Shown here: positions 6,063-60,611 of the stretch, piece after piece | Position numbering within the stretch: the first letter of the stretch is position 1 | Layout: every line of letters begins with the position of its first letter | Source of the DNA: Lacticaseibacillus absianus | GTDB taxonomy: Bacteria; Bacillota; Bacilli; Lactobacillales; Lactobacillaceae | Assembly: GCF_013407595.1 (NCBI RefSeq) | Contig: NZ_JABEKX010000003.1 | Span: 124,001-188,000, forward strand | Length of the DNA stretch: 64,000 bases | Direction of reading: 5' to 3' | Notes under the pieces: model-generated | Seen by the model: the letters and a program-made list of their open reading frames with translations, nothing else | What the model was told of the DNA's origin: nothing | The model's database searches: none | Program-made: the position numbers and the translations under genes

Positions 6063-6272
6063 GGGGCTGTGCCATAACGCGGTTTTAGCCCAGAGTATAA
6101 GAGCGATCTCCTGTAAAACCCGAACTTAGGTTTTGCAGGGGATCGCTCTTGTACGGCTTGCGCTGCCCGTTCGAACGCAGTGAGTTACAGGCAGACATGC
6201 GTTAGAAAGGGCGTTGCGTTATGGCGCGTAACGTTCTGGAATAGTCGTGCCACCAAAGGTTACGTCACAACC
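6063..6272 (+). repeat. Palindromic MITE-like element, copy A (full, 210 bp)
   Basis: The ends are GGGGCTGTGCCATAAC and, inverted, GGTTGTGACGTAAC. The centre is a long hairpin (GAGCGATC...GATCGCTC around CGAACTTA). The element starts 25 bp after the thioesterase stop, and its outer right side reads CCGCC followed by five T. No ORF of note is inside it. The rest of 6039-6381 holds only the nitroreductase promoter. Confidence 0.9.
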
Positions 6273-6316
6273 GCCTTTTTAGCTGCTTCGGCGAGGTAAA
6301 AAATCGGTGAGAACCG

Positions 6317-6345
6317 TTGTTGCGTGCTCATTCACGTGCTAGACT
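6317..6345 (+). promoter_or_regulatory. Predicted promoter of the nitroreductase gene
   Basis: TTGTTG, a 17-bp spacer and TAGACT lie 37 bp before the start codon. Confidence 0.5.
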
Positions 6346-6381
6346 GAGGCCATTCGAATCAATTCGTTATGGAGTGAGCAT

Positions 6382-7104
6382 ATGGACACACACGCATTGC
6401 AACACCGCAGCATTCGCCGGTTCAAGCCGGTGGCGATCGACTATCGCGCCCTTGAGACCGTCGCGCAGGCGACCAGTTCCAGCGAGTTTCTGCAGTCGTT
6501 CACGATGATCCGCGTCACGACCCCGCGGCTGCGGGCGGCGATCGCCGCGATCTCGGGCAGCCAAGTGCTGGCTCAGCCCAACGGCGAGCTGTTCATCTTC
6601 GTCGTCGACACCGCGCGCGCCATTCGGCTGACCGCGGCGGGGAGCGACTTGCACACGTTGACCAACTGGAACGCCTTTTTGGCGGGCGCATTCGACGCGA
6701 CGCTGGCGGCGCAGAACGTTCTGGTCAGCGCCGAGCGCGCAGGGTTGGGGGGCGTGTTGCTGGGCAGCATCCTCAACGACCCCCAGCAGATGATCGACCT
6801 GCTCCGCTTACCACGGTACACGTTCCCGCTGCTGGGTCTGATCGTCGGGGTGCCGGCGGAAGCACCGGCGGCCAAGCCGCGGCTGCCGCAGTCGCTGGTG
6901 GTGAGTGAGAATGCTTACCCTGCGCCGGATGACGCGGCGATGGCGCGCTACGATGACGTGGTGGCGGCGTATTATGCAGGGCGTGGCGATGCGGCGCGGC
7001 AGTCGAGCTTCACCAGCCTGGTGCAGCGTCATCTCGGTGCTGACCAGAAGCACCGCGACGAGATCGGCCAGATCCTGCGGCAACAGGGCTTCGTACTGGA
7101 TTGA
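6382..7104 (+). CDS. Nitroreductase family / NADPH-dependent flavin oxidoreductase
   Basis: A 240-residue protein of the NfsA/FRP type. The N-terminus HRSIRRFKP is the FMN-binding start of nitroreductases. AFDATLAAQNVLVSAERAGL and GGVLLGSILNDP match the central helix and FMN loop, and LLGLIVGVPAE is the usual end of the core fold. Such enzymes reduce quinones, nitro compounds or flavins with NAD(P)H. The physiological substrate cannot be told from sequence. The gene is monocistronic: it has its own promoter and a repeat element on either side. Confidence 0.88.
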   Translation: MDTHALQHRSIRRFKPVAIDYRALETVAQATSSSEFLQSFTMIRVTTPRLRAAIAAISGSQVLAQPNGELFIFVVDTARAIRLTAAGSDLHTLTNWNAFLAGAFDATLAAQNVLVSAERAGLGGVLLGSILNDPQQMIDLLRLPRYTFPLLGLIVGVPAEAPAAKPRLPQSLVVSENAYPAPDDAAMARYDDVVAAYYAGRGDAARQSSFTSLVQRHLGADQKHRDEIGQILRQQGFVLD

Positions 7105-7280
7105 GGCCTAGTGGAGCAGTACGAGACAAAAGGGGCCGAGACATCATCAACGGCTCACGATAGATGCACGACGACTCCAGAACAGTACGAGCCATAAAGC
7201 GACGCCCAAGCCGTATAAGCATGGCCCCGTGCAACCGGCGCTGGTCCGCGTCAAGTAGACAGGTCAAATAATTAAAGTGC

Positions 7281-8159
7281 CTATGCAGTTTTCCTTACGG
7301 CATGATTCCGATATTCCATCGGGGTCATGCCGTTTAGTGTTTCTTGGCGGCGTTCGTAGTTATACCAGTTGATTGCCGCTTCGATACTCTTCATCATCTC
7401 AAGCTCGGACAAGCAGTGCTCAAAGGCGAACCACTCAACCTTAAGATGGCTCCACAGGCTCTCCATTGGGCTATTATCGCCAGGAGTGCCCGGCCGCGAC
7501 ATGCTGTGGATAATTCCTTCACCTGCTAAGCACGTGTTGTAGGTGCGCCCGGTGTACGCGGATCCTTGGTCACTATGCGTAATTTCTGGCCTGATGCCAT
7601 TGTTGCTCTTGATGGCCAGCTTAATCGTCTTGGTGGTAAGCGCCGCGGTTTCGCTCGGTGCCACACACCAGGCGATCACGCTGTGATCATAGAGATCCTT
7701 CACGGCACTAAGCCGCAGTTTCTGTCTACCATCTTGACCGTAAGTGAGCTCGGAACAGTCGGTCACCCAGACTTTGTTGGCCGCGCTAGGGTGGAAGGCA
7801 TGCCCCGCATCGACGGTGTACAGCTTGTTGGCTAGGAGGAACTCCTTCCTCTCGGCTCTGCGATCGTGCTTCGCTACACGGATAGAGGCTCGAATCCGTC
7901 CCTGACGCATGAGCCTGCGGACACGACCGTGACTCACGTGATAGGGTGTTTCCTTATTGATATACGTCACGAGCCGTTTGACCCCGAAGACATAGTGATG
8001 CTTTTCCTCAAGGGTCACGATGTAGGCCAGAATAGCCTGATTCTCCCGTTCATGGACCGTCACCTTACGATGCGTCCACTTGTAGTACGCTGCACGCGAG
8101 ATACCCAGAAACCGGCATGTCTCACTGATGCCATAAAGCTGACCGGAGTCGGGATTCAC
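7281..8159 (-). CDS. IS3-family transposase OrfB (DDE integrase)
   Basis: A 292-codon frame counted from a GTG that overlaps the OrfA stop. The rve integrase core shows the three acidic residues: VTDCSELTY, HSDQGSAY and NSPMESLWSHLK. The frame is open well upstream in the -1 phase of orfA. The functional protein is therefore most likely an OrfAB fusion made by -1 frameshifting at the A7 run near 8231. In the fusion, OrfB begins with the YQAIQQLAQE helix before the ISRAAYYKW motif. It cuts and joins the element ends. Confidence 0.93.
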   Translation of the reverse strand: MNPDSGQLYGISETCRFLGISRAAYYKWTHRKVTVHERENQAILAYIVTLEEKHHYVFGVKRLVTYINKETPYHVSHGRVRRLMRQGRIRASIRVAKHDRRAERKEFLLANKLYTVDAGHAFHPSAANKVWVTDCSELTYGQDGRQKLRLSAVKDLYDHSVIAWCVAPSETAALTTKTIKLAIKSNNGIRPEITHSDQGSAYTGRTYNTCLAGEGIIHSMSRPGTPGDNSPMESLWSHLKVEWFAFEHCLSELEMMKSIEAAINWYNYERRQETLNGMTPMEYRNHAVRKTA

Positions 8160-8884
8160 TTCTTGCGCGAGTTGCTGAATGGCCTGATATTGCCTGTCTG
8201 ATCGACATTCCCTCTTTCCAGTTCTTGGAGTTTTTTTAACACTGCGACCTCCGTTGACACACGGGTTAATCGTGCCTGTAGTCGCTTGTTCTCGAGCTTC
8301 AAACGCTCTACTTCAGTGAGCTGACCATTATCTTCCTTCGCCTTACCGCGGCGGTCTGCGAGGGCGGACTCACCACCTTGCTTGAACTTTTTGACCCATG
8401 CATAGACCTGTCCATACGAAACGTTGAACTGCTGGGTTGCGGCGACGTAGTCGTGTTCGTTGGCGATGGTCCATTGTGCGATCTCGACACGTTCGAGCTG
8501 CGTAGTCTTGCGTCCATCTTTCATTGGCTTGGCCCTCCCAGTGGCTTGTAGTGATTTACCACTAGTATACAGGGATACCCATTGACCGATGACGGTTTTA
8601 CCCGGAATGCCGTAGGCAACAGCCAGCTGCCGAAAAGATGTGTTACCGGCTAGGTACTTCTGCACGACTTCTAGCTTGAACTCCCGAGAATACTGTTGGT
8701 TAGTATGCCTGGACTTAAGACCATCCATCCCATCAGCTGCGTAACGGTTTAACCACTGGTTGACCTGGTGGTGATCGATACCGTGTATCCTTTCCACTGC
8801 CTGTGAACTCCAGCCGCCCTCATTAACCAGACCAATGTAGAACAGTTTCTCTGCGGGCGTGTATCTTGAACCTATCCGGCCCAT
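8156..8884 (-). CDS. IS3-family transposase OrfA (double HTH)
   Basis: A 242-residue OrfA with two helix-turn-helix domains (around YTPAEKLFYIGLV and SREFKLEVVQKYLAG) and a C-terminal leucine-zipper-like coiled coil (VERLKLENKRLQARL). It binds the inverted repeats. The start ATG at 8884 lies 49 bp inside the right end. The codon pair TTA AAA AAA at about 8233-8241 gives an A7 slippery run. Reading it in -1 joins OrfA to OrfB without a stop. Confidence 0.92.
   Translation of the reverse strand: MGRIGSRYTPAEKLFYIGLVNEGGWSSQAVERIHGIDHHQVNQWLNRYAADGMDGLKSRHTNQQYSREFKLEVVQKYLAGNTSFRQLAVAYGIPGKTVIGQWVSLYTSGKSLQATGRAKPMKDGRKTTQLERVEIAQWTIANEHDYVAATQQFNVSYGQVYAWVKKFKQGGESALADRRGKAKEDNGQLTEVERLKLENKRLQARLTRVSTEVAVLKKLQELERGNVDQTGNIRPFSNSRKK
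8231..8240 (-). other. Putative programmed -1 frameshift site in the transposase
   Basis: On the minus strand GTTAAAAAAACT is read as TTA AAA AAA CTC in OrfA. A -1 slip on the A7 run enters a frame that continues without a stop through YQAIQQLAQE into OrfB. IS3 elements usually make their transposase in this way. Confidence 0.75.
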
Positions 8885-9032
8885 AAAAAAACTCCTTCCC
8901 AGGAAGGCAAGCTTTAATTATTTGCTTGTCTACCTAAGTAGGAGTATAGCCACCCCTAAGTTCGGGGCTTTCACGGGGCCATGCTTATACTCTGGGCTAA
9001 AACCGCTTTATGTCTCAGCCTAGTTGTCTCGA

Positions 9033-10742
9033 TCAACTGCGGCGCTTGCGCCAGCCGAGCGCGAGCAGGGCGACGATGAGCGCCACGCCGCTCACGGCGA
9101 TGAGCGGGGCCTTGGCGTCGCCGGCCTGCGGAAGGGGTTGGCGCTTTGCGCGCGGGGCCTTAGTGGCTTTGGGGCCAGGCTTCTGGGGGGCCGGCTGCTT
9201 GTGTGCGGCTGGGCCTGGCTTCTGAGGACCGTCCGTGTGCGGTTTTTCAGCCGGCACCGGCGTCTTGCGGTAGATCAGGATCACGTCTTGGTCGGTTGCG
9301 GTGTAGGTGCCGGTCAGCGCGCCTTGGCCGACGCGAACGAAGGTGTAGCCGGCCAGCGCCGGTGGGGTAATGGTGTAGCCCTGATCGACCACCCCGTTGA
9401 GCGTCGAGACCGGCGCAAGACCGGCGCCCTGTTCGTCTTGGACGTGGATGTGGACGTGGCCCGGTGTTGGGTCGGGCGGGATCGGGTCTTGGTCATAGAC
9501 ATAGGTGACCGTCTGAGGCGCCGCGGTGTACGTGCCGGTGGGCGCCCCTTCGATCGACTGGACGGTGTATCCCTTGATCGGCAGGGGGGTCGTGGTGTAG
9601 GCCTGCCCGACGTCGCCGGTCAAGTGGGTGGCTTCGGCCAGCGGGTGCCCGTCGCGGTCTACGTACCGGACGAACAGGTTGCCCCAGGTCGTGCGGTAGT
9701 ACTCCATCCCGGTCTGGACCAGGGTATTCCCGTTCGGGTAAGTGACCGGGTCGGGGTAAGGGTAGCCGACGTAGCCATATTGGTTATCGATGATCGTGTA
9801 GCCGATCTTGCCGTACTGCCGCGACTGCGAGATGAGGTAGTCGTGCCCGTTGACGGTCACTTCAGGCGTTGCGCTGTTGTAGGTGTGGTAACCGGTCGCG
9901 ACGGGCTGGCCGTCGATCCCGATCGTCTGGCTGTGGATCAGCAGGTCCTCACCGGTTTGGGCCGCATAGGCGGGCGCCTGGAAGACGCGGTAGTTGTTGA
10001 CGGAGAAGACCTCCGTGTTCGTGAATTTGGCAAAATACGAGAAATCCGACAGGCGTTGGCCGGACAGCGAGAAGTAGACCTTGGCCGGGCTGGCGGCCGC
10101 CGCTTTGGTGAACAGCGGGTCTAGCTGCCGTAGCTGCTCATTGCGCAGACCGGTCGTGTTCGTGCTGTTGGTGACGCCGGCCAACTCGAGGCCCCAGTAC
10201 GGATCAAACTGACCGAACGTGAGCGAGTTCAAGGCGGTGATGTCGGCGTCGGTCCAGTTCCCCGCGCCGTCTTGTTGCAGGGAAATATTGCCGGCGATGT
10301 GTAGACCGGTCAGGGGGACCAGGGAGACACCAGGGGCCATGAACAGCTTGAGCTGAATGCTCCAGCCGCTTGGTAGCTCGCGCAGGGCTTCGAGCCCGGT
10401 CAGGTCGGTCAGCGGGGTCGTGATCATGTCAGGGATCAAGTTGACCACAATGCGCTGATTCGGCATGGCCCCCGAGTTGGGGTCAACGTGGCGAATGTCG
10501 CCGTAGGTCAGCTCGCCGGTTTTGATCCCGAAGGCCTTGCGCAGCCCCGCCTTGAGCTGCGGGTCGTTGATCGTGACGGGATCGGTATCCGCGTGTGTGC
10601 TGAGCGCGCGCGGTCGACTGAGGCGAGTCGCCGGCGTCGTCGTGCTCGGTAGACTGGCCGCGTGAACTGGAACAGCGCCGATCGCTAGGGCAGCGGCCGC
10701 CCCGATCAACAGCGCGGTCGCGTGATGATGACGAATGAACAT
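9033..10742 (-). CDS. MucBP-domain surface protein with LPQAG sorting signal
   Basis: A 569-residue cell-wall protein. Signal peptide at residues about 1-28 (ATALLIGAAAALAIGAVPVHA). Then an internalin-like region with leucine-rich spacing (LTDLTGLEALREL, LVPLTGLHIAGNISL), a middle domain, and two MucBP repeats (VRYVDRDGHPL...TYVYD and IHVQDEQGAGL...LIYRK). A Pro/Lys linker leads to LPQAG, a hydrophobic span and RKRRS. LPQAG departs from LPxTG at position 4. It is likely a mucin or glycan adhesin. The ATG at 10742 follows GGAGG; the open frame runs 99 codons further upstream without a ribosome site. The gene lies 32 bp after a sortase-like gene in the same direction. Confidence 0.88.
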   Translation of the reverse strand: MFIRHHHATALLIGAAAALAIGAVPVHAASLPSTTTPATRLSRPRALSTHADTDPVTINDPQLKAGLRKAFGIKTGELTYGDIRHVDPNSGAMPNQRIVVNLIPDMITTPLTDLTGLEALRELPSGWSIQLKLFMAPGVSLVPLTGLHIAGNISLQQDGAGNWTDADITALNSLTFGQFDPYWGLELAGVTNSTNTTGLRNEQLRQLDPLFTKAAAASPAKVYFSLSGQRLSDFSYFAKFTNTEVFSVNNYRVFQAPAYAAQTGEDLLIHSQTIGIDGQPVATGYHTYNSATPEVTVNGHDYLISQSRQYGKIGYTIIDNQYGYVGYPYPDPVTYPNGNTLVQTGMEYYRTTWGNLFVRYVDRDGHPLAEATHLTGDVGQAYTTTPLPIKGYTVQSIEGAPTGTYTAAPQTVTYVYDQDPIPPDPTPGHVHIHVQDEQGAGLAPVSTLNGVVDQGYTITPPALAGYTFVRVGQGALTGTYTATDQDVILIYRKTPVPAEKPHTDGPQKPGPAAHKQPAPQKPGPKATKAPRAKRQPLPQAGDAKAPLIAVSGVALIVALLALGWRKRRS

Positions 10743-10774
10743 AATGATCTCCTCCATATCGATTGAAACCCGAG

Positions 10775-11458
10775 TCATTGGGCAAAATACAACGTCAAGG
10801 GACTCTCGCGGCTGTCGCCCTGAGGCACGCAGGTCTGAAACGAGATCCCGCCTAGGGCCGCACGTGCGGTGGTCAGGGTGTCGATCGCAGCCTCGTCGTT
10901 CGGCACTCGGTCGAGGATCTTGGTCACATGATAGGTGTGGCCGTCGACCGTGATTGCCGAGCCGCGCTCGACGAACGCGAGCGCTGCATGGGCGGCCCCG
11001 GTGTACTCGATCAGATAATGCCCTGGCAGTGCGGTCCACTCGTAGACGTACCCATCGCCGGGGACCCGTCCGATCCCGGCGAATGGTCTGATCGGATAGT
11101 GGCGACCTGCGAGGTTGAAGCCCGTGGCGGGCGCCGGCGGCCGGCGGACCTGGGCCGGCCGGGTAGTCGTGGTGCTGGTGGTGCGAGCGGTCGGCGGAGG
11201 TGGCGAGTCAACTTGAGCGGATGAGGCCGCAGCTGGGTGCGGCGCATCAGTTGGTGGGTTGACCGGGCGGGAACTGGGGCGAGTGGCCTCGGTGTGGTGG
11301 CTTGTCGCCGATTTCGATGCTGGATTCGGTGCGGTGAACGCCTGACGTGGTGGTGCCGACACAGGTTCCGGGCGTTGACGTCTGGCGGTCGCGGTCCAGC
11401 CAAGCATGGCACAGGTGAGCGTGATCAATGCGCCGCAGTAGACCCCGCGGCGCCTCAT
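10775..11458 (-). CDS. Sortase-like membrane-anchored protein
   Basis: A 227-residue protein: a signal anchor (GALITLTCAMLGWTA), a Pro/Ser/Thr-rich stalk to about residue 110, then a beta-rich domain. The domain shows EYTGAAHAALAFVERGSAIT, DGHTYHVTKI and ISFQTCVPQGDSRES. These could be the His, the beta-strand core and the TC...R of a sortase (His-Cys-Arg triad). I infer this from the pattern and the neighbour: the next gene encodes an LPQAG substrate. It could instead be a degenerate sortase fold with another role. There is no ribosome site before the ATG. A small upstream ORF overlaps it (ATGA), so translation is probably coupled. Confidence 0.5.
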   Translation of the reverse strand: MRRRGVYCGALITLTCAMLGWTATARRQRPEPVSAPPRQAFTAPNPASKSATSHHTEATRPSSRPVNPPTDAPHPAAASSAQVDSPPPPTARTTSTTTTRPAQVRRPPAPATGFNLAGRHYPIRPFAGIGRVPGDGYVYEWTALPGHYLIEYTGAAHAALAFVERGSAITVDGHTYHVTKILDRVPNDEAAIDTLTTARAALGGISFQTCVPQGDSRESPLTLYFAQ

Positions 11459-11529
11459 GCTGGGCCGGCCGGATGCGCGAACGGCAGCGCCCCCGCTGCC
11501 GTTGTTGTGTTGATCGGTTTTATCCTCAA
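11455..11529 (-). CDS. Small leader ORF coupled to the sortase-like gene
   Basis: Twenty-four codons starting at a TTG with AAGGAGGG 7 bases upstream. The stop overlaps the next start as ATGA. The peptide (MRIKPINTT...) has no recognisable function. The sortase-like gene lacks its own ribosome site, so this frame probably delivers ribosomes to it. A GGCAGCG/CGCTGCC hairpin lies within it. Confidence 0.4.
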   Translation of the reverse strand: MRIKPINTTTAAGALPFAHPAGPA

Positions 11530-11569
11530 GCCAAGCCCTCCTTACCCATATGATCGCGCCTCCAGTGCG

Positions 11570-11599
11570 ATTATATAACGATAGTCATTATAAAGACAA
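11570..11599 (-). promoter_or_regulatory. Promoter of the sortase-like/MucBP operon
   Basis: On the minus strand TTGTCT, an 18-bp spacer and TATAAT. The AT-rich stretch 11560-11755 is otherwise empty. Confidence 0.7.
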
Positions 11600-11760
11600 T
11601 AAGCGAACCGTTATCTGTGCTGAACGATATTTTCGATATGAAGAAGGAATAATCGACTGACTACAGGGGAAAAATATCGCGCGCTGAAGAATTAAATGCG
11701 ATGGTTTGAGATTAAAATTCAAATCATTTTAAAAAGGAAAATGTTTTTTTCGGTCAATGC

Positions 11761-11806
11761 AAAAACCCGAGCACCGTGACCACAGTCGTGGTCACGGTGC
11801 TCGGGT
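11761..11806 (-). terminator. Terminator of the LPQTG repeat-protein gene
   Basis: A perfect 19-bp stem starting ACCCGAGCACC around AGTC, with five T after it on the minus strand, 15 bp past the stop codon. Confidence 0.9.
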
Positions 11807-11820
11807 CAGGGACAATGGGG

Positions 11821-13239
11821 TCAGGCGCGCTTACGGCGGCTGCCGGCGAGGCCGAACAGGGCGCCGAGGGTGGCGGTCAGACCTAGGCCGCTCAGAAGCA
11901 GGTCTTGGTCATCCCCTGTCTGCGGCAAGGCCGCCCGCTTAGCAGCCATGCGGCTGAGCGGCGCCTTCGCGGGCTGAGTGGCTGGACGCACGCTGAGCGG
12001 GGTCACCTTCGCGGCCGGCTGATCCGGCGTGCCAGCAGGGGCCGGCGTGGCGGACTGCTGGGTCGCGTGATCACCAGTGCCCGGCGTCGGCTGGTCGACG
12101 CCAGGCTTGGTTACCGGCTTCTCCGGTAGCGCAGGTTGGTCAGGCGTCTCAGGTTGCGTCGGTTTGTCAGGTGCTGGGCTTGGCGCCGGGGCCGGTGTTG
12201 GCGCGATCGGCTTAGGCCCGACATGGTTGGCCCAGACCTTCTGACCGGCTTCGAAGCCTTGCTGCATGGCGGCTTTGACCGTGTCGGATTTGCCGGCGAG
12301 CAGGCTTTCCGGCAGGGCGGCGGCCCCGGTCTGGCCGATCTTGTTGCCAAGGGCGTAAGCGTCGGTGGCTTCTTGGGTCATGCCCGTGGCGTTACCGGCC
12401 TGGTTCTGGTTGTCGGTGATCGGCTTGGTGTTAGCATCGATGCGGTTGGCCCAGACCTTCTGGCCGGCTTCGAAGCCTTGCTGCATGGCGTCTTTGACCG
12501 TGTCGGATTTGCCGGCAAGCAGGCTTTCCGGCAGGGCGGCGGCCCCGGTCTGGCCGATCTTGTTGCCAAGGGCGTAGGCGTCGGTAGCTTCTTGGGTCAT
12601 GCCCGTGGCGTTACCGGCCTGGTTCGCGGCGTCGGTGATTGGGCCAGCGTGGTTGTAATCCGGGCGGCCAGCACCGGACTGATCAGCGTTGTTCTGGTTC
12701 GCGGCGTCGGTGATTGGGCCAGCGTGGTTGTAATCCGGGCGGCCAGCACCGGTTTGATCAGCGTTATTCTGGTTAGTGGCGTCGGTGATCGGGCCAGCGT
12801 GGTTGTAATCCGGGCGGCCAGCGCCGGATTGATCGGCGTTGTTCTGGTTCGCGGCGTCGGTGATTGGGCCAGCGTGGTTGTAATCTGGGCGGCCAGCACC
12901 GGATTGATCGGCGTTGTTCTGGTTCGCGGCGTCGGTGATCGGGCCGGCGTGGTTGTAATCCGGGCGGCCAGCACCGGATTGATCGGCGTTGTTCTGGTTA
13001 GTGGCGTCGGTGATCGGGCCAGCGTGGTTGTAACCTGGGCGGCCGGCGCCGGATTGATCAGCGTTGTTCTGGTTCGCGGCGTCGGTCAGGACGCGCGCGT
13101 TGAGGGCCGCCGGGGTCGCGGCGGTCACCGGCTGGCTGCTCAGCGCTTGGAAGCTGAGCAGGGTCGTGGCGGTGAGGGCGGCGGTCACCCAACCGCGCCG
13201 GGTCTTTTTCAGGGTCTTGCTGCTGCGAAGCTCTGTCAT
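11821..13239 (-). CDS. LPQTG cell-wall protein with 25-residue tandem repeats
   Basis: A 472-residue surface protein. Signal peptide at residues about 1-40 (VTAALTATTLLSFQALSS). Then six near-identical 25-residue units of the type NQNNADQSGAGRPDYNHAGP plus ITDAA, two copies of a unit of about 66 residues (GNATGMTQEATDAYALGNKI...VKDAMQQGFEAGQKVWAN), a Pro-rich wall-spanning region, LPQTG, a hydrophobic span and RRKRA. The role is unknown; adhesion or surface masking is plausible. The start is ATG 13239 after AGGAGGAG. The 75-bp DNA repeats are nearly identical and prone to copy-number change. The gene has its own promoter and terminator. Confidence 0.88.
   Translation of the reverse strand: MTELRSSKTLKKTRRGWVTAALTATTLLSFQALSSQPVTAATPAALNARVLTDAANQNNADQSGAGRPGYNHAGPITDATNQNNADQSGAGRPDYNHAGPITDAANQNNADQSGAGRPDYNHAGPITDAANQNNADQSGAGRPDYNHAGPITDATNQNNADQTGAGRPDYNHAGPITDAANQNNADQSGAGRPDYNHAGPITDAANQAGNATGMTQEATDAYALGNKIGQTGAAALPESLLAGKSDTVKDAMQQGFEAGQKVWANRIDANTKPITDNQNQAGNATGMTQEATDAYALGNKIGQTGAAALPESLLAGKSDTVKAAMQQGFEAGQKVWANHVGPKPIAPTPAPAPSPAPDKPTQPETPDQPALPEKPVTKPGVDQPTPGTGDHATQQSATPAPAGTPDQPAAKVTPLSVRPATQPAKAPLSRMAAKRAALPQTGDDQDLLLSGLGLTATLGALFGLAGSRRKRA
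12639..13090 (-). repeat. Six tandem 75-bp coding repeats
   Basis: Six units of 75 bp within the LPQTG protein gene encode the 25-residue repeat. They differ at a few positions only (Ala/Thr, Ser/Thr, Gly/Asp). Many of the DNA differences between units are silent. Confidence 0.85.
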
Positions 13240-13288
13240 TGTTCTCCTCCTTATTAGGTGGTTCTGATGGATCGATGCCATCGAGCCC

Positions 13289-13318
13289 AGTATACGAGGT
13301 GTCACGACAGGGGGTCAA
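13289..13318 (-). promoter_or_regulatory. Promoter of the LPQTG repeat-protein gene
   Basis: On the minus strand TTGACC, an 18-bp spacer and TATACT, about 50 bp before the ATG. It lies directly downstream of a terminator hairpin. Confidence 0.75.
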
Positions 13319-13331
13319 TTGAATCGAGAGT

Positions 13332-13371
13332 AAAAAAAATTGATAGCTCGCGTTACACAGCGTGCTATCAA
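13332..13371 (-). terminator. Terminator hairpin in front of the LPQTG gene promoter
   Basis: TTGATAGC/GCTATCAA arms with eight T after them on the minus strand. It would stop read-through from the asparaginase and endonuclease genes. The spacer 13372-13562 contains nothing else I recognise. Confidence 0.75.
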
Positions 13372-15518: not shown

Positions 15519-15643
15519 CTAAGGAGTAGGATCCAACGCGTTAAGTGCCGCCGGAACGGAATGTGAACGGTGGACGAAGGCTGCAGCCGCGGTGTTGGAC
15601 CCGCATTCGCCTATCTTTAGTAGGCGTCTCCGCACAAAGGAGA
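15519..15643 (+). promoter_or_regulatory. Tetrahydrofolate riboswitch controlling folT
   Basis: The conserved bases of the THF riboswitch are visible: GGAGTAGGAT, GCGTTAAGTG, GAACGGAATGTG, GACGAAGGC and GCCGCGGTG...CCCGCA. P1 is formed by CTAAGGA (15519) and TCTTTAG (to 15620). Just after it, TCTCC (15627) can pair with the ribosome site GGAGA (15639), so folate binding probably decides access to the ribosome site. The gene that follows belongs to the folate ECF transporter family, which fits. Confidence 0.9.
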
Positions 15644-22373: not shown

Positions 22374-22537
22374 GGGATTGTGCCATAACCTCTGGTGGCA
22401 CGACTATTCCAGAACGTTACGTGCCATAACGCAACGCCCTAGCCGTATAAGAGCGATCCCCCGCAATACCTAAGTTCGGGTTTTGCAGGGGATCGCTCTT
22501 ATACTCTGGGCTAAAACCGCGTTATAGCACAGCCCCC
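22374..22537 (-). repeat. Palindromic MITE-like element, copy B (short, 164 bp)
   Basis: Same ends as copy A but in reverse orientation, and lacking a 49-bp segment (CGCCCT joins directly to AGCCGTATAAG). Just outside, AAAGGTGGG on the left pairs with CCCACCTTTTTTT on the right, forming a terminator for tsaD around the element. Confidence 0.88.
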
Positions 22538-37074: not shown

Positions 37075-37286
37075 GGGGCTGTGCCATAACGCGGTTTTAG
37101 CCCAGAGTATAAGAGTGCTCCCCTGCAAAACCCGAACTTAGGTTTTGCAGGGGAGCGCTCTTATACGGCTTGCGCTGCCCGTTCGAACGCAGTGAGTTAC
37201 AGGCAGACATGCGTTAGAAAGGGCGTTGCGTTATGGCACGTAACGTTATGGAATAGTCGTGCCACCAGAGGTTATGTCACAACCCC
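37075..37286 (+). repeat. Palindromic MITE-like element, copy C (full, 212 bp)
   Basis: Ends GGGGGCTGTGCCATAAC and GTTATGTCACAACCCC. The central hairpin has GAGTGCTCCCC...GGGGAGCGCTC. Just outside, CCAAAACAG on the left pairs with CTGTTTTGG on the right (13 bp when the outer G/C run is included), giving a T-tract on both strands. It starts 77 bp past the LytR-CpsA-Psr stop. The rest of 36824-37362 has no gene. Confidence 0.9.
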
Positions 37287-44707: not shown

Positions 44708-44771
44708 GGCGTAGTTGGCCGGCGCAACGGCCAAAAAAAGCCGCCTCGGTCGGCGGCGATGACGTTTACCC

Positions 44772-44982
44772 GGGTTGTAACATAACCTCTGGTGGCACGA
44801 CTATTCCAGAACGTTACGTGCCATAACGCAACGCCCTTTCTAACGCATGTCTGCCTGTAACTCACTCCGTTCGAACGGGCAGCGCAAGCCGTATAAGCGC
44901 GATCCCCTGCAAAACCTAAGCTCGGGTTTTTCAGGGGATCGCGCTTATACTCTGGGCTAAAACCGCGTTATGGCACAGCCCC
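44772..44982 (-). repeat. Palindromic MITE-like element, copy D (full, 211 bp)
   Basis: Reverse orientation. Hairpin arms GCGCGATCCCC and GGGGATCGCGC differ from copy A in both arms together. The right outer flank is CCCC followed by TTTT. It lies 237 bp past the DUF7916-type gene, after that operon's own terminator. Confidence 0.9.
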
Positions 44983-52524: not shown

Positions 52525-52535
52525 GCGCTTGTTTA

Positions 52536-52698
52536 GGGGCTGTGCCATAACGCGGTTTTAGCCCAGAGTTATAAGAGCGATCCTCTGCAAAACCCGCACT
52601 TAGGTTTTGCAGGGGATCGCTCTTATACGGCAAGGGCGTTGCGTTATGGCACGTCACGTTCTGGAATAGTCGTGCCACCAGAGGTGATGTCACACCCC
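52536..52698 (+). repeat. Palindromic MITE-like element, copy E (short, 163 bp)
   Basis: Lacks the same 49-bp segment as copy B (TACGGC joins AAGGGCGTTGCG). Ends GGGGCTGTGCC and GTGTGACATCACC. The right outer flank is CCCCC then TTTT. It starts 12 bp after the DUF1827 stop. Confidence 0.88.
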
Positions 52699-52832
52699 CT
52701 TTTCGCGTCTTAACGGGCCTGGTGTGCGCGGGTGTCTGCGGGTGGCAGACAGTGGCCTGTCTGGTGTAGACGGTGAAGGCGCTGCCTTTACCAATGCTTA
52801 AACTTCTGCTAGTATTTCCTCGATGTGAGTTT

Positions 52833-52838: not shown

Positions 52839-52886
52839 GCTAAGGTTTGTTAACTCGAATGATACTTGTGAAATGGAGAGTCTTGT

Positions 52887-54722
52887 ATGTTGCATTTGAA
52901 GCGACTATTGGTGGGGAAACCCCTCAAATCCTCCGATGAAGGCGGGCAGAAGCTCGGCAAGCTCAAAGCGCTGGCGATGCTGTCCAGCGATGCGCTGTCC
53001 TCCGTGGCGTACGGGACCGAGCAGATCGTGCTGGTCTTGACCACGCTGTCGGCCGCCGCGATCTGGTACTCGCTGCCGATCGCGGCCTTCGTGCTGATCC
53101 TGCTGCTGGCGCTGACCCTGTCGTACCGGCAGATCATCCACGCCTACCCGAGCGGTGGGGGCGCCTACCTGGTCGCCAGTGAGAACTTAGGCCAAAACGC
53201 GGGCCTAGCCGCTGGCGGGAGCCTCTTGATCGACTACATGCTGACCGCAGCGGTCTCGTCGTCCGCCGGGGCGGAGGCGATCACCTCTGCGATCCCGAGC
53301 CTGTACGGCCACGAGGCGATCATCGCCTTGATCATCATTGTGATCCTGACGGCGATGAACCTGCGCGGGCTGAGCGAGTCCGCCAACTTCCTGATGGTGC
53401 CGGTCTACCTCTTCGTGGTGTCGATCACCGCGATGATCCTCTGGGGCGGCTACCAGATCGCGACCGGTGCGATCCCGTACCACGCCACCGCGGCAGTTGG
53501 CGGTATCGTGCCGGGTATCTCCATGGCCCTGATCTTCCGCGCTTTTTCAAGCGGGTCGAGTTCTTTGACCGGGGTCGAGGCGATCAGTAACGCCGTGCCG
53601 TTCTTCAAAAAACCGCGCGAGCATAACGCCGCGACCACCCTGGCGATCATGGCCGCCATCCTCGGCTTCTTCTTCGCCGGCATCACCTTCTTGAACTACT
53701 GGTACGGGATCGTGCCAGAAGCCAAGGTGACCGTGCTCTCCCAAGTCGCCAAGGCGACCTTCGGCGGCACCGGGGTGATGTATTACGTGATCCAGCTGGC
53801 CACCGCCTTGATCTTGGCGGTCGCGGCCAACACCGGGTTCTCCGCGTTCCCGATGCTCGCGTATAACATGGCCAAGGATAAGTACATGCCCCACATGTAC
53901 ATGGACCGCGGCGACCGGTTGGGCTATTCCAACGGGATCTTGACGCTGGGCATCGGTGCGGGCTTCTTGATCCTCTTGTTCCAAGGCTCCACCGAGCGCT
54001 TGATCCCGCTGTACGCGGTCGGGGTGTTCATCCCGTTCACGCTGTCGCAGACCGGGATGATCCGGCACTGGTGGGCGCGGCACAAGACGGAGAAAGGGTG
54101 GATCGGCAAGAGTATCGCGAACTTCTCCGGCGCGCTGATCTCGTTTGCCATCCTCGTGATCCTGTTCGTCTACCGGTTGGCGGACATCTGGCCGTTTTTC
54201 ATCATCATGCCGACCTTGGTCTTCGTCTTCTGGAAGATCCACGACCACTACAAGCAAGTCGCTGAGCAGCTGCGCCTGCCGCAAGACATCGAGCTGCACG
54301 ACTACGCCGGCTCCACGGTCATCGTGCTCGTCGGCAACGTGACCCGCGTGACGCGCGGGGCGCTGAACTACGCGCAGACCATCGGGGATTACGTCATCGC
54401 GATGCACGTCTCGATGGACGAGAACCCGAACAAGGAGCAGGAGACGCAAGCCGAGTTCAAGCGCGACTTCCCGGACGTGCGCTTCGTCGACGTCCACTCG
54501 TCTTACCGCTCTGTCGAAGGCCCGACCATCCGCTTCGTGGACATCGTGGCCCGCAACGCCGCTAAGCGCAACTTCACCACGACCGTCTTGATCCCGCAGT
54601 TCGTGCCGAAGAAGCCGTGGCAGAACATCCTGCACAACCAGACGACCCTGCGCCTGCGCGCCGCGTTCGCCAGCCGCGAGAACGTCATCATCGCGACCTA
54701 CAGCTACCACCTCAAGCGGTGA
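52887..54722 (+). CDS. kimA: KimA-like high-affinity potassium importer (APC family)
   Basis: A 611-residue protein closely following the plan of Bacillus KimA (YdaO): GKPLKSSDEGGQKLGKLKAL at the start, AMLSSDALSSVAYGTEQIV, SYRQIIHAYPSGGGAYLV, SSLTGVEAISNAVPFFK and LIPLYAVGVFIPFTLSQTGM, then about 150 cytosolic residues (GTVIV-like VGNVTRVTRGALNYAQ). In Bacillus it is a K+/H+ symporter inhibited by c-di-AMP. Older annotation calls it an amino acid permease. A c-di-AMP receptor, DarA, is encoded at 2737. Repeat copy F begins 11 bp after the stop. Confidence 0.88.
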   Translation: MLHLKRLLVGKPLKSSDEGGQKLGKLKALAMLSSDALSSVAYGTEQIVLVLTTLSAAAIWYSLPIAAFVLILLLALTLSYRQIIHAYPSGGGAYLVASENLGQNAGLAAGGSLLIDYMLTAAVSSSAGAEAITSAIPSLYGHEAIIALIIIVILTAMNLRGLSESANFLMVPVYLFVVSITAMILWGGYQIATGAIPYHATAAVGGIVPGISMALIFRAFSSGSSSLTGVEAISNAVPFFKKPREHNAATTLAIMAAILGFFFAGITFLNYWYGIVPEAKVTVLSQVAKATFGGTGVMYYVIQLATALILAVAANTGFSAFPMLAYNMAKDKYMPHMYMDRGDRLGYSNGILTLGIGAGFLILLFQGSTERLIPLYAVGVFIPFTLSQTGMIRHWWARHKTEKGWIGKSIANFSGALISFAILVILFVYRLADIWPFFIIMPTLVFVFWKIHDHYKQVAEQLRLPQDIELHDYAGSTVIVLVGNVTRVTRGALNYAQTIGDYVIAMHVSMDENPNKEQETQAEFKRDFPDVRFVDVHSSYRSVEGPTIRFVDIVARNAAKRNFTTTVLIPQFVPKKPWQNILHNQTTLRLRAAFASRENVIIATYSYHLKR

Positions 54723-54732
54723 TGGCGCGACC

Positions 54733-54943
54733 GGGTTGTGACATCACCTCTGGTGGCACGACTATTCCAGAACGTTACGTGCCATAACGCAACGCCCTTT
54801 CTAACGCATGTCTGCCTGTAACTCACTCCGTTCGAACGGGCAGCGCAAGCCGTATAAGAGCGACCCCCCGCAAAACCTAAGTTCGGGTTTTGCGGGGGGT
54901 CGCTCTTATACTCTCGGCTAAAACCGCGTTATGGCACAGCCCT
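54733..54943 (-). repeat. Palindromic MITE-like element, copy F (full, 211 bp)
   Basis: Reverse orientation. Hairpin arms GAGCGACCCCCCGC and GCGGGGGGTCGCTC, again with paired changes against copy A. The right outer flank CCCTG then TTTT lies on the exit side of kimA. The mutS leader (54944-55113) contains nothing else. Confidence 0.9.
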
Positions 54944-55113
54944 GTTTTAGCTTCTAGGGCGAGCGAGCAGGGCACCGGCGGCTGCGCCGCGGGGCGTGGG
55001 TCAGTCCGCCGGCGTGATACCCGCCCACTTGGCCGTTGCGATCGGCCCTCTCCCCCAAACCGGCGATCAATGTTAAAATAGACCGTAATCAACCCAAGTT
55101 AAGGAGCGCCATC

Positions 55114-57828
55114 ATGCCGCAAAAAACGCAAGATACGCCGATGATGCAACAGTATCAGGCGATCAAAGATCAGTACCCGGATGCTTTTTTGTTCTACCGC
55201 ATCGGGGACTTCTATGAGCTCTTCTACGAGGACGCCATCAAGGGCTCTCAGCTTCTGGAGCTGACCCTGACGGCGCGCAACAAGAGCGCGGATGATCCGA
55301 TCCCGATGTGTGGGGTGCCGCACCACGCGGCGCAGAGCTATGTCGATATTTTGGTCGATCAGGGCTACAAGGTCGCTATCTGTGAGCAGATGGAGGACCC
55401 CAAGAAGGCCGTGGGGATGGTGCGGCGCGAGGTGATCCAGCTGGTCACGCCGGGCACGAAGATGGACGTCCGCCCCGGTGAAGCGAAGGCGAACAACTAC
55501 CTCGCCGCCGTGGTGCCCGCCGGTGAGCGCTACGGGCTGGCTTACGCGGATCTGTCGACCGGTGAGTTCAAGGTGACGACGCTAGCCAACCGCTTCACGC
55601 TTCAAAACGAACTGGCGGCACTGGGCACGCGGGAGGTCGTGGTGCCGACGGATCTGAGCGACGCCGACCGGACGCTGCTGGGGCAGGGGCGGCTACTCAG
55701 CCCGAGCGATGCGGCCGTGTTGGCGGAGGCCAGCTACGTCAGCCAGGACCTGACGGACACCCTGCAGGTGACGGTCGTCGCGATGCTGATGAACTACCTG
55801 CTGACGACGCAGAAGCGCAGCTTGGCCCACATCCAAAAAGCGGTGGCCTATCAGCCCAGCGAGTTTTTGGAAATGGACCAAGACGCCCGCGCGAACCTGG
55901 ACATTCTGAAAAACAGCCGCACCGGGCGCAAGGGTGATACGTTGCTGGCGGTGCTCGACAAGACCAAGACCGCGATGGGCGGGCGCTTGTTGAAGCAGTG
56001 GCTGGACCGGCCGCTGCTGGACCTGGCCGCGATCACGGCGCGCCAGGAGCAGGTGCAGACCCTGATGGATCACTACTTCGAGCGCAGTGAGCTGCAGGAG
56101 CGCCTGACGAAGGTGTACGACCTGGAGCGCCTGGCCGGCCGGGTGGCGTACGGCACGGTCAACGGGCGCGACTTGATCCAGCTGCAGACCAGCTTGGATC
56201 AGATCCCTGCGCTGCAGACTATCCTGAGCACGTTGGATGACGGCAGCTTCACCGAACTGTTAGCCGCCTTGGACCCAGTGCAAGACGTCGCCAACCTGAT
56301 CCGGCGCGCGATCGAACCGGAGCCGCCGATCTCGATCATGGACGGTGGGCTCATCCTGCGCGGCTACAACGAGAAACTCGATACGTACCGCGATACGATG
56401 GCCAACTCCAAGCAGTGGATCGCCGAGCTGGAGGCCAGCGAGCGCGAAGCCACCGGCATCCACAACCTGCGCATCCGCTTCAACAAGGTGTTCGGCTACT
56501 ACATCGAGGTGACCCGCGCGAACCTGAGCAAGGTGCCGGCGGACCGCTACGAGCGCAAGCAGACGCTGACCAACGCCGAACGCTTTTCCACCCCGGCCTT
56601 GAAGGCCAAAGAGGCGCTGATCCTGGAAGCTCAGGAGCACGCGACGGCGCTGGAGTACGACTTGTTCCAAGACATCCGCGAGCAGGTCAAGACCCAGATC
56701 GGCCGCCTGCAGACGCTGGCCGCCAAGGTCGCCGCGCTCGACGTGTTGCAGAGCTTCGCGGTGGCCGCCGAGAACGATCACTTCGTACGCCCGAGCATGC
56801 ACGCCGGCCACCACGACCTCGCGATCCACGGCGGTCGTCACCCGGTCGTCGAGCAGGTGCTCGGTGAGGCACAGTACATCCCGAACGACGTGGTGATGGA
56901 CACCGAGACCGACATCCTCTTGATCACGGGGCCGAACATGTCGGGTAAAAGCACGTACATGCGCCAGCTCGCCCTGACCGTGATCATGGCGCAGGCCGGT
57001 AGCTTCGTTCCGGCGGATGACGCGAGCCTGCCAGTATTCGATCAGATCTTCACGCGCATCGGTGCGGCCGACGACCTCGCCAACGGCCAGAGCACGTTCA
57101 TGGTCGAGATGATGGAGGCCGAGGCGGCCTTGAGCCACGCGACCGCCAGCTCCCTGATCTTGTTCGATGAGATCGGGCGCGGCACCGCGACCTACGACGG
57201 CATGGCGCTGGCCCAGGCGATCATCGAGTACCTGCACGATCACGTGCACGCCAAGACCCTGTTTTCGACCCACTACCATGAACTGACCGCCTTGGCCGAC
57301 CGCCTTGATCAGCTGGTCAACGTCCACGTCGGGGCGGTCGAGGAGAACGGCACGCTGGTCTTTTTGCACAAAATGCTCCCGGGCCCGGCCGACAAGTCCT
57401 ACGGGATCCACGTCGCCAAGCTCGCCGGCCTGCCGGCCAGCTTGTTGCACCGCGCGGATCTGATCCTCACGCAGCTGGAGGACCAGCCGCGCGCGCTGAT
57501 CGACGCGCCGAGTGCGGCGGCACACCCAAGTCCGGTGGCCCTCGACGCGGCGCCGGTTGTCGCAGTCGATGCCGACGCGACGCCGCCTGTTGCGCGCGAG
57601 TCTGACGTGGCCGGCCCCAGCGCCACGCCGACGTCAGCCCGCACCGCCGTCGCACCACCGGTGGTGGCGGAGGCAGACGGCCAGCTCTCGCTGTTCGGTC
57701 CGGCACCGGTCACGACCAAGCCGGACCCGCTGCTGCGCAAGCTCGAGAAGTTCGACTTGATGGACGCGACCCCGATGGACGCAATGAACCTGCTGTATGA
57801 GATCCAAAAGCAACTCAAGAAGAGGTGA
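55114..57828 (+). CDS. mutS: DNA mismatch repair protein MutS
   Basis: A 904-residue MutS. The mismatch-reading motif is in [11 protein letters not shown]. The connector, lever and clamp domains follow, and the ATPase has [23 protein letters not shown] and STHYHEL. An Ala/Pro/Thr-rich linker of about 90 residues precedes the beta-clamp-binding motif QLSLF, then a C-terminal dimer segment. This makes it longer than the usual roughly 860 residues. ATG 55114 follows AAGGAG. mutL starts 5 bp after the stop. Confidence 0.97.
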
Positions 57829-57833
57829 GCCAC

Positions 57834-59834
57834 TTGGCTAAGATCCACGAATTATCCCCGACGCTCGCGAATCAGATCGCGGCCGGGGAAGTGATCGAAC
57901 GACCGGCCAGCGTCGTCAAGGAGCTGGTCGAAAACGCGATCGACGCCGGCGCGACGCAGGTCGACGTGCTGGTCGAAGACGCCGGGCTGCGCCTGGTGCA
58001 GGTGATCGATAACGGCGCCGGCATCGAGCCAGACGACGTGCCCACGGCCTTCGTGCGCCATGCGACCTCCAAGATCCTGACCACGCGCGACTTGTTCAAC
58101 GTGCACAGTCTCGGGTTTCGCGGGGAAGCGCTGGCCTCGATCGCCGCGGTCGCCGATGTGACGCTGGTGACCGCCACCGAGAACGGGCTGGGCACCAGCG
58201 CGCACATCGTCGGCGGCGCCATGCAGGATCAGCACACCACGGCCGCGCGGCAAGGCACGAGCCTGAGCGTGCGCGACCTCTTTTATAACACCCCTGCGCG
58301 CCTGAAGTACGTCAAGTCGCAGGCCACCGAACTGTCGCGCATCGTCGACATCGTCAACCGCCTTGCGCTGGCGCACCCAGAAGTCGCGTTCACGCTTAAG
58401 AACGGGCAGAACACGATGCTCAAAACGGCGGGGCACGGCGACCTCCAGCAGACCATCGCCGGCATCTACGGCGTGGCGACGGCCAAGAGCATGCTGCAGA
58501 TCACGGGCCAGGACCTCGACTTCACCGTCCAGGGCTTCACCAGCCTGCCGGATACCACGCGCGCCAGTCGCAACTACCTGAGCCTGATGGTCAACGGCCG
58601 CTACATCAAGAACTACCAGCTGGTCAAGGCGCTGATCGCCGGCTATGGCTCCAAGCTGATGGTCGGCCGCTACCCGATCGCCGTGATCGACATCACGATG
58701 GATCCGCTGCTCGTCGACGTCAACGTGCACCCGACCAAGCAGGAGGTGCGCCTGAGCAAGGAGGAGCAGCTCAGCGAGTTGCTGACCACGGCGATCCGTA
58801 GCCGCCTGGGTCAGGAGAACCTGATCCCGGACGCCTTGCACAACCTGCGTCGCCGCGAGCCGGTCAACATGGACCAGCTGACGATCGCGCTGAACGCGGC
58901 GTCGCAGGCCAATGTGGTCAGCGATCACCAAGTTCCGTTGCCGGTCACCGAGGCCCCGGCGCCTGAACCCGACGCTTCGGTCACGCCGACAGACGCCGGC
59001 GCGACACGCACTACCGCGCGTCCAACGGCGGCGCCAGCGCAGGGGGCGTCGATCACCCCGCTTGCCCGGCCGGTCGGGCCACAAGACGACTTCGGCTTGA
59101 CCATCGACGCGCTGGATCCGGCGCCGATCTTCAACGACGCTGAACGCTTGGCCGACTGGGATACGCGCCACGCTGAGCCAGTCTCGGCGCCGACGCCGCT
59201 GCGCCCGGTGGCCGCCCCGGCGCAGCGCTTTCCGCAGCTGCGCTACCTGGCCCAGCTCCACGGCACGTACCTGCTGGCGGAAGCCGACGACGGGCTGTAC
59301 CTGCTGGATCAGCACGCCGCGCAGGAGCGCGTGAACTACGAGTTTTACCGCCAGGCGATCGGCCAGGTCGCCGCGGATCAGCAGGCGCTCTTGGTGCCGC
59401 TGGTGCTCGACTATCCGGCGAGCGACGCCGTCGCGATCCGCGCGCACCGCGACGTGTTGGCGAGCGTCGGGTTGTTCCTCGAGGACTGGGGCCAAAACAC
59501 CTTTGAAGTCCGCCAGCACCCGACGTGGTTCAAGGCGGGCCAGGAGGAAGACACCATCCGCGAGATGGTCGACTGGGTCCTGCGCGACGGGCGCATCTCG
59601 GTCGCCAAGTTCCGGGAGAAAACCGCGATCATGATGAGCTGTAAGCGGGCGATCAAGGCCAACCACCACCTCGATGAGGCGCAGGCCAAGGCGCTCTTGG
59701 TCAAGCTCGCTGACTGCGAGAACCCGTTCAACTGCCCGCACGGCCGCCCGGTGCTCGTACAGTTCACCAACACCGACTTGGAGAAAATGTTCAAGCGCAT
59801 TCAAGACAGCCACGAAAGCGGGGATGACTTGTGA
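57834..59834 (+). CDS. mutL: DNA mismatch repair endonuclease MutL
   Basis: A 666-residue MutL. The GHKL ATPase domain shows [26 protein letters not shown] and [11 protein letters not shown]. After a variable linker of about 100 residues the endonuclease domain has [24 protein letters not shown] and CPHGRP. It nicks the new strand during mismatch repair. The TTG at 57834 gives the standard MAKIHELS start with AGAGGTG upstream; the GTG at 57825 is inside that site. Confidence 0.96.
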
Positions 59835-60391
59835 TCATCCTCGCCAGTGGTTCCCCCCGGCGCCGTGAGCTGCTCGCGCGCGTCGTGCCGACGTTCACCG
59901 TCGTGCCGGCGCAGATCGATGAGCGGGCGCTGCCGCTCCTGCCGCCGCGGGCCTATGTCCAGCAGCTGGCTCGCACCAAGGCGCTGGCCGTCGCGGCACA
60001 ACACCCTGAAGCGACCGTGATCGCCGCAGACACCATGTGTTTTTGGCGTGACACCTTCCTCGGCCAGCCGGTGGACCGCGCAGATGCGGCGCGCATGCTG
60101 CGCCAGTTGGCGGGGCAGACCCACCAGTGCTGCACTGGGTTGGCAATCGCCCGCCCGGACCAGCCGGTGCAACAGGCCGTGGTGACGACTGAGGTGACCT
60201 TTTGGCCGCTCGACGCCGCGGCGATCGACGCCTACCTCGACACTGGCGAGTACGTCGACAAGGCGGGGGCGTACGGTATCCAGGGCCAAGGCGCCCTGCT
60301 GGTGCGCGGGCTGGTCGGCGACTACTACAACGTCGTCGGCCTCCCGATCAGCACGCTGGCGCGGATGCTGGCCGGCCAGTCGCTCGATTGA
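59831..60391 (+). CDS. maf: Maf family nucleoside triphosphate pyrophosphatase
   Basis: A 186-residue Maf protein. [12 protein letters not shown] is the N-terminal signature, [18 protein letters not shown] holds the catalytic Asp, and [27 protein letters not shown] is the C-terminal motif. It hydrolyses non-canonical or modified NTPs. GTG 59831 overlaps the mutL stop, so it is part of the mutS-mutL operon. Repeat copy G starts 10 bp later. Confidence 0.94.
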
Positions 60392-60400
60392 AAAAACGGT

Positions 60401-60611
60401 GGGGCTGTGCCCATAACGCGGTTTTAGCCCAGAGTATAAGAGCGCTCCCCTGCAAAACCCGAACTTAGGTTTTGCAGGGGAGCGCTCTTATCCGGCTTGC
60501 GCTGCCCGTTCGAACGGAGTGAGTGACAGGCAGACATGCGTTAGAAAGGGCGTTGCGTTATGGCACGTCACGTTCTGGAATAGTCGTGCCGCCAGAGGTG
60601 ATGGCACAGCA
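60401..60611 (+). repeat. Palindromic MITE-like element, copy G (full, 211 bp)
   Basis: Hairpin arms GAGCGCTCCCC and GGGGAGCGCTC. Just outside, AAAACGGTG on the left pairs with CACCGTTTT on the right: an intrinsic terminator for the maf operon with the element in its loop. Confidence 0.9.

Follow-up and report, generated by a model that had tools for sequence, protein, structure and literature searches.

Copies in the window

The window, a stretch of 64 kb from Lacticaseibacillus absianus, contains eight copies of a short palindromic repeat. The first-pass annotation had described such a family with eight copies, and all eight could be located as follows.

6063..6274, + strand: MITE copy A, 212 bp, 24 bp past an acyl-ACP thioesterase-family gene
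7132..9022, - strand: MITE copy H, of the second terminal class, with convergent gene ends 27 and 10 bp off
about 7256-8932: IS3-like element splitting copy H, recognised by domain matches, ends set by eye
22374..22536, - strand: MITE copy B, 163 bp, 55 bp past a TsaD-family gene
37075..37286, + strand: MITE copy C, 212 bp; stop codon of a LytR-CpsA-Psr-family gene 76 bp away
37107..37166, no strand: central 26-bp hairpin of copy C, loop CGAACTTA
44771..44982, - strand: MITE copy D, 212 bp
52536..52699, + strand: MITE copy E, 164 bp, 11 bp past a DUF1827-family gene
54732..54943, - strand: MITE copy F, 212 bp, 9 bp past an amino-acid permease-family gene
60401..60613, + strand: MITE copy G, 213 bp, 9 bp past a Maf-family gene, at a convergent site

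The distances from stop codon to element given in the annotation (about 25, 56, 77, 237, 12, 11, 10 and 28 bp) were reproduced within 2 bp. For copy D the distance to the stop of the left gene stands (235 bp), but a convergent small gene is predicted whose 3′ end lies nearer, at 41 bp. Copy H, regarded earlier as a diverged member, is a single element of the second terminal class that has been split by the IS3-like element and measures 1891 bp with its insert.

The element family

Genome-wide, at least 42 copies with two ends were found, the eight in the window among them, and the family was matched in 12 of the 30 Lacticaseibacillus genomes searched, its own genome counted. Matches without two recognised ends (e.g. 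C4:807958 and C9:30744) were kept out of the 42, and the ends of C1:277362, C5:59182 and C7:39490 were placed by eye. The termini, GGGGCTGTGCCATAAC / GGGGTTGTGACATAAC, are inverted repeats. Chance was rejected as the origin of the family: when up to 3 mismatches are allowed, the window holds the 20-base left end 6 times, against a mean of 0.00 in 100 shuffles. Five of the 42 copies, including copy H, carry the second terminal class GGCYGAGACATAA. Sizes fall into discrete classes of 163-164 bp (17 copies) and 207-213 bp (14 copies), the former being the latter minus a 49-bp block; ten other copies measure 62, 171, 172, 178, 220, 230, 243, 256, 327 and 330 bp.

The elements had been said to carry no open reading frame of note, and zero genes were called inside intact copies; the caller, our own and based on codon bias, overlooks IS genes of low G+C. 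Short, multi-copy, coding-free and bounded by terminal inverted repeats, the family has the properties of a MITE, and this earlier reading gains further support from the IS1182-family ends described below. Rfam 15 holds no family for the element at curated score, the only match in the window being a THF riboswitch at 15520-15614, and the element was unmatched in plasmid and phage collections (blastn, E 1e-5). That no named family matches is consistent with the literature searched, in which IS1272 is a published precedent for the class of mechanism.

In the related species used for comparison, sites A-G are without the element, one independent copy excepted. Among 28 related-species stretches around these sites the element core was present only in L201 (site D, genome G009), and one further stretch, L196, showed a single end-like match and no core.

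Location relative to genes

The strict 3′ location proposed from the window holds for the genome, as all 42 copies adjoin the 3′ end of a gene: 25 lie between convergent genes, 11 between tandem genes and none between divergent genes, while one side is uncalled for 6. The median distance from stop to element is 11.5-12 bp, one copy lying as far as 427 bp away; copy C1:277362, at a convergent site, is 17 and 12 bp from the stops. Compared with the window's gaps of at least 20 bp (8 convergent, 25 tandem, 9 divergent), a control that includes the element-holding gaps, convergent sites are in excess (Fisher, 9e-6) and divergent sites deficient (0.003). Eleven additional one-ended or truncated copies, located using approximate ends, gave 5 convergent, 5 tandem, 0 divergent and 1 unresolved; neither these nor the 42 lie in genes or promoters. 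The 24 copies from other species, one chance match having been removed from 25, behaved likewise (14 convergent, 6 tandem, 0 divergent, 4 unresolved). At the 11 tandem sites neither orientation relative to the gene prevails; by our reading the split is 6 to 5.

The internal hairpin

Each arm of the internal 26-bp hairpin changes in concert with the other around a near-constant loop. The alignment comprises 50 of 55 distinct hairpins (one chance match and four divergent ones were left out), and 98.1% of its cells are paired, a percentage inflated by pre-filtering for at least 18 of 26 paired positions. Both sides have changed in 17 of the 26 pairs, and the double-changed cells, which count sequences and not events, number 197 against 49.4 in shuffles.

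Such figures are what one would expect if the elements were not, or no longer, transposons and were instead RNA structures maintained by the host as terminators or mRNA-end stabilisers, with selection acting on the hairpin. We consider this unlikely. In the variable pairs 8-15 there are 166 double-changed cells against 4 single-sided ones, and many of the double changes are A-U to C-G swaps, for which no wobble route exists. Two copies, L016 and L027, carry an inverted loop. The even orientation relative to the gene and the fact that, one independent copy aside, the species compared lack the element at sites A-G also speak against host maintenance. Concerted correction of the palindrome at the DNA level accounts for these observations better than selection on RNA.

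A probable IS1182-family partner

An autonomous insertion sequence with the same ends was found in the sister species L. suibinensis (G024). This 1.79-kb IS encodes an intact 540-aa transposase enclosed by the ends GGGGTTGTGACATAAC / GGGGCTGTGACATAAC, which scores 306 bits against NF033551 (cut-off 270) and contains the domains DDE_Tnp_1, DDE_Tnp_1_6 and DUF772. The ends G[GA]GGCTGTGACATAA were also seen in four plasmid IS1182 records, examined out of 15 among 1427 with a match; both ends are present in three, and one visible end in the fourth. The element's ends are thus shared with the IS1182 family, and a transposase of this kind may well have served the MITE.

A search for an intact IS1182 transposase in the 11-contig assembly of the MITE's own genome found none; there is a C-terminal fragment below the NF033551 cut-off, which shares 71% identity over 49 aa with the transposase of L. 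suibinensis and adjoins the end GGGGTTGTGCCATAACC. Mobilisation would therefore lie in the past or have an external source, unless the assembly lacks the gene. Within the genus, only 2 of 30 genomes encode an IS1182 transposase that passes the cut-off, and for that of G011 the stretch examined shows no such ends when 3 mismatches are allowed. L. daqingensis (G006) has 30 MITE matches, yet no IS1182 transposase over the cut-off. Only the ends are common to MITE and IS in the sequences read, and since the MITE interior was not seen in the IS, a simple deletion derivative was rejected.

Target sites

Flanks were compared for 37 copies, the five with an adjoining IS110 element being excluded. The left and right flanks of a copy pair with each other with a score of 4.54 against 3.08 +/- 0.20 for swapped flanks, and 0 of 1000 permutations scored as high; permuting flanks among copies in this way also rejects pairing as a by-product of A/T-rich edges. 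In 14 of the 37 the flanks pair weakly, with scores no higher than 3. Copy B, with AAAGGT / ACCTTT on the window's + strand, and copy C, with CCAAAACAG / CTGTTTTGG, are examples from the window; copy G has AAAACGGT on the left and GTTTTGAGG immediately past the right end. The flanks read as inverted repeats, direct repeats having been judged by eye only. A- or T-runs stand at the element edge in 34 of 37 copies against 1 each farther out, and G+C is 0.32-0.41 next to the element against 0.55-0.70 beyond 8 bases.

At orthologous sites in related species, compact intrinsic terminators were called by a simple scanner in 21 of 36 (22 of 37 before one element-bearing ortholog was removed), compared with 13 of 400 coding stretches (Fisher, 1e-17). 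These terminators lie 1-37 bp from the stop, with a median of 11; among the 15 sites left uncalled, some show bulged terminator-like hairpins by eye. From flanks and other species together, the target appears to be an inverted-repeat structure such as a terminator, as for IS1272.

The original hairpin appears to be missing from the filled sites. When flanks were joined, a terminator was called at 10 of 59 sides of the 37 copies and only 3 of 59 span the junction, compared with 13 of 22 element-free gene ends in the window. The scan covered 130 bases at the element-free ends and, at element sites, the distance to the stop and 70 bases more. What remains is A- and T-rich and flush with the element.

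IS1397 in the loops of REP sequences is an example of simple palindrome targeting, and insertion into the loop or edge of a terminator, with the hairpin retained, was our earlier reading. It accounts for the G/C pairs kept beside the element in some flanks (CCAAAACAG / CTGTTTTGG and TAACAGCAA / TTGCTGTTA), but is improbable in view of the A+T-richness of the 8 flanking bases and was given up on the joined-flank result, so few junction-spanning terminators being found.

Insertions in genes and promoters must often be purged by purifying selection. That random or any-intergenic insertion followed by such selection spares only the least harmful, 3′-region copies has been proposed for pneumococcal repeats, which like IS elements are enriched in convergent regions according to the passages of PMC3049150 at hand, but here this is very improbable, as it predicts neither the mutual pairing of a copy's flanks, nor A/T runs flush with its ends, nor the missing local terminator, nor a stop distance resembling that of the ortholog terminators. 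The first-pass annotation had left the choice between targeted insertion and selection for function; targeted insertion is favoured because related species often have terminators at the sites, flanks are inverted repeats above chance and the original hairpin appears to be missing.

Discussion

The family very probably consists of non-autonomous IS1182-type MITEs placed by IS1272-like, hairpin-replacing transposition. IS1182-family DDE transposases would mobilise the MITEs in trans and recognise stem-loop-forming DNA, typically the intrinsic terminator just past a gene. The element would take the place of the hairpin, without target duplication, leaving the A-tract and T-tract remnants flush with its ends. 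Its GGGG..CCCC ends pair among themselves, in many cases with what is left of the flanks too, and this pairing probably rebuilds a stem for termination beside the old T-tract, making insertion nearly harmless. Two copies folded with their flanks gave z scores of -10.3 and -9.2. It is plausible that elements work as terminators after insertion.

Stem-loop-replacing transposition has been described in staphylococci for IS1272 and TnSha1 of the IS1182 family, and in the available passages (PMC5678879, PMC4923244) these share with what is proposed for the present element the hairpin or terminator targets, the removal of the hairpin, the lack of target duplication, the position just downstream of genes and the IS1182 type. 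They are autonomous or composite and were demonstrated by pairs of empty and filled sites, whereas the present family is coding-free, belongs to Lacticaseibacillus, and points to replacement through flanks and other species. In Methanosarcina acetivorans, IS1182-family MITEs of 160 and 169 bp are likewise short, non-autonomous and assigned a partner of that family, ISMac2; the passages of PMC3852290 at hand list a 4-bp direct repeat for one of them, by our reading of the column order, and mention no hairpin targeting, modular interior or covarying hairpin. IS1182 is listed among the families over-represented between convergent genes in the part of a survey available to us (PMC9208149), which concerns full IS and not MITEs.

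Other short repeats offer partial parallels. Among those of S. pneumoniae, RUP has been matched to IS630, while to our knowledge BOX has been matched to no known IS. As far as the relevant passages of PMC3049150 go, BOX, RUP and SPRITE are short structured repeats over-represented between convergent genes, BOX being modular and SPRITE terminator-like as in the MITE family, and IS1182-type ends, which the MITE family has, are not described for them.

All five full copies of an IS110-family element abut the right end of a MITE. A guide-pairing search between the non-coding part of IS110 and the MITE end gave one 9-base match, which by our estimate is expected by chance about once per eight such searches and is only a lead. 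In Coxiella burnetii, the MITE QMITE2 serves IS1111 as a landing site (PMC10969869, in the passages at hand), so that there too an element of the IS110/IS1111 group lands on a MITE; QMITE2 is unrelated to the present family and two IS copies are named there, against five here. Hairpin-replacing transposition is already published for IS1272, and what is unusual here is the concerted internal hairpin, the modular size variants and the adjacency of IS110.

One may tentatively go further and regard the element as a transposable terminator, a wider proposal that is possible though on balance doubtful: copies would replace terminators and take over termination for one or two genes, the hairpin arms would evolve in concert by DNA-level palindrome correction or loop flipping and not by RNA selection, and the element would act as a landing pad for IS110.

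The analysis ties a puzzling gene-end repeat to a particular transposition mechanism of an unusual kind, and a single genome supplies more than 40 natural cases for studying hairpin-replacing transposition. These cases bear on whether a mobile element can take over the terminators of its host genome, and the concerted arm changes and inverted loops may record how long DNA palindromes mutate naturally.

Results

The eight copies in the window (A to H), which the first-pass annotation had described as a MITE-like family with terminal inverted repeats, are real and non-random members of a genome-wide family. A search with copy C and a relative's copy, with ends paired, recovered 42 two-ended copies in the 2.84 Mb genome of L. 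absianus, where the window spans C5:124001-188000. These measure 163 bp (n = 16), 164 bp (n = 1) and 207-213 bp (n = 14), with single copies of 62, 171, 172, 178, 220, 230, 243, 256, 327 and 330 bp, and copy H reaching 1891 bp with its insert included. With the variable stem excluded, median pairwise identity within the classes is 0.950 (17 copies) and 0.942 (14 copies). Matches were found in 12 of 30 Lacticaseibacillus genomes, L. absianus counted, and the core in L. daqingensis, L. suibinensis, L. suilingensis, L. jixianensis and L. hegangensis.

The location at gene 3′ ends proposed for the window copies holds for all 42 copies. By the gene calls of a codon-bias gene caller, a gene 3′ end flanks at least one side of all 42 copies; 25 lie between convergent and 11 between tandem genes, none between divergent genes, and for the other 6 no gene was called on one side, which in five cases faces an IS110 element. 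The distance to the nearest stop has a median of 11.5 bp and a maximum of 427 bp. Eleven further copies that lack two recognised ends include 5 at convergent and 5 at tandem sites, none at a divergent site and 1 unresolved. Of 24 copies from 40 loci of other species, one additional chance match being left out, 14 are convergent, 6 tandem and 4 unresolved, with none divergent and a median distance of 9 bp.

The element is ordered as left end GGGGCTGTGCCATAACGCGGTTTTAGCCCAGA, a 60-base hairpin, the block GGCTAGGGCGTTGCGTTATGGCACG and right end CCAGAGGTTATGTCACAACCCC. In the longer class a further 49 bases follow the hairpin, and the TGCCGAACTGCGGCC..GGACGGAAGCA module is an addition in some longer variants; sequence related to it lies on the opposite strand in the 178-bp variant. 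A second end class, GGCYGAGACAWAA, comprises 5 of the 42 two-ended copies and is seen in copy H and in copies of L. daqingensis, L. suibinensis and L. suilingensis.

Among 50 distinct hairpins from L. absianus and other species, a set selected beforehand for pairing and in which cells are sequences and not events, 98.1% of cells are paired, 17 of 26 pairs have changed in both arms, and covariation scores 0.464 versus 0.136 when shuffled and at most 0.081 when slid. Mid-stem variation exceeds that outside the hairpin in each class (0.149 vs 0.041; 0.243 vs 0.063), and pairs 8-15 show mostly double changes, one-sided changes being rare. At two loci (L016 and L027) the loop is inverted, with CCTAAGTTCGGG in place of CCCGAACTTAGG, and the arms still pair. 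We interpret the arm changes as probably reflecting correction of a long palindrome at the level of DNA; they do not prove selection on the RNA, which may also have acted.

Pairing between a copy's own two flanks is higher than with those of other copies, a level reached in 0 of 1000 permutations (n = 37 copies). At orthologous ends of the genes beside copies A-G, a protein match was available for 37 loci and lacking for 7 more; terminators were called at 22 of the 37, one of them spurious because that genome, G009, has its own MITE at the site. A compact intrinsic terminator is thus called at 21 of 36, against 13 calls by the same scanner in 400 coding stretches. The MITE was present only at the G009 site among 28 fetched ortholog stretches, and the L. 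daqingensis stretch for site C (L196) holds a lone end-like match, the core being absent. At locus L201 (G009, contig C15) the ortholog of the gene before copy D also has a MITE of this family adjoining its 3′ end, which seems to have inserted independently.

Terminators were called at 13 of 22 element-free gene ends in the window. At MITE sites with the flanks joined, they were called at 10 of 59 sides (37 copies) and spanned the junction in only 3, a difference (3/59 vs 13/22, Fisher 5e-7) drawn from scanned stretches of unequal length. An A-run or T-run is flush with the MITE in 34 of 37 copies, and the adjoining bases are A- and T-rich (G+C 0.32-0.41). This scarcity together with the A/T-rich edges suggests that a G+C-rich hairpin has been lost from MITE sites and its A/T shoulders left behind.

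Insertion elements lie in or beside several copies:
C1:1159400, full IS110-family element, DEDD_Tnp_IS110 domain
C4:353278, the same
C4:475389, the same
C4:598529, the same
C4:1047851, the same
7256-8932 of the window (ends by eye), IS3-like element interrupting copy H within its central hairpin and encoding integrase core and HTH domains in two ORFs

The full IS110 copies (contigs C1 and C4 of L. absianus; about 1.69 kb, 98-100% identical) all adjoin a MITE right end, some 2-4 bases outside, and elsewhere the genome matches the element only over 102 bases at 71% identity, at C1:910729. The MITE end is CCCG at 5/5 of these sites and at 5/37 other copies (Fisher 0.0003). A precedent is described in PMC10969869 for IS1111 in QMITE2 of Coxiella.

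Two further features of the window were recorded:
11821-13305, minus strand, long ORF containing six in-register copies of a 75-bp-period repeat (12544-13143), therefore probably a 25-residue protein repeat
15520-15614, THF riboswitch aptamer, 73.9 bits

Discussion

The MITE ends are common to IS1182-family elements, namely one in L. suibinensis (L068 in G024) and those of the four plasmid records inspected out of 1427 with a match (Limosilactobacillus reuteri, Lactiplantibacillus plantarum, Levilactobacillus brevis, with one end visible, and Lactiplantibacillus pentosus). In L. absianus the sole trace of an IS1182 transposase is a fragment adjoining a MITE-type end. Against the link, a transposase above the cut-off occurs in just 2 of 30 genomes of the genus, and one of these two has no matching ends at up to 3 mismatches. 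The MITE interior was not seen in the IS1182 element sequence.

The apparently missing hairpin corresponds to the mechanism described for IS1272 and TnSha1, which, in Wan et al. 2017 (PMC5678879) and a 2016 paper (PMC4923244), swap out DNA hairpins, often terminators, without target duplication. An IS1182 transposase probably likewise replaces hairpins with the MITE. The hairpin-targeting mechanism is already known; a MITE family combining it with a modular structure and a concertedly evolving hairpin was not found in the literature searched, which covers few subscription papers.

Folded together, the element and its flanks form a single closed structure in which flank and end repeats join at the base; in copy B a T-run comes immediately after it, so termination may survive insertion. 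The family is best explained as an IS1182-type MITE that occupies terminators.
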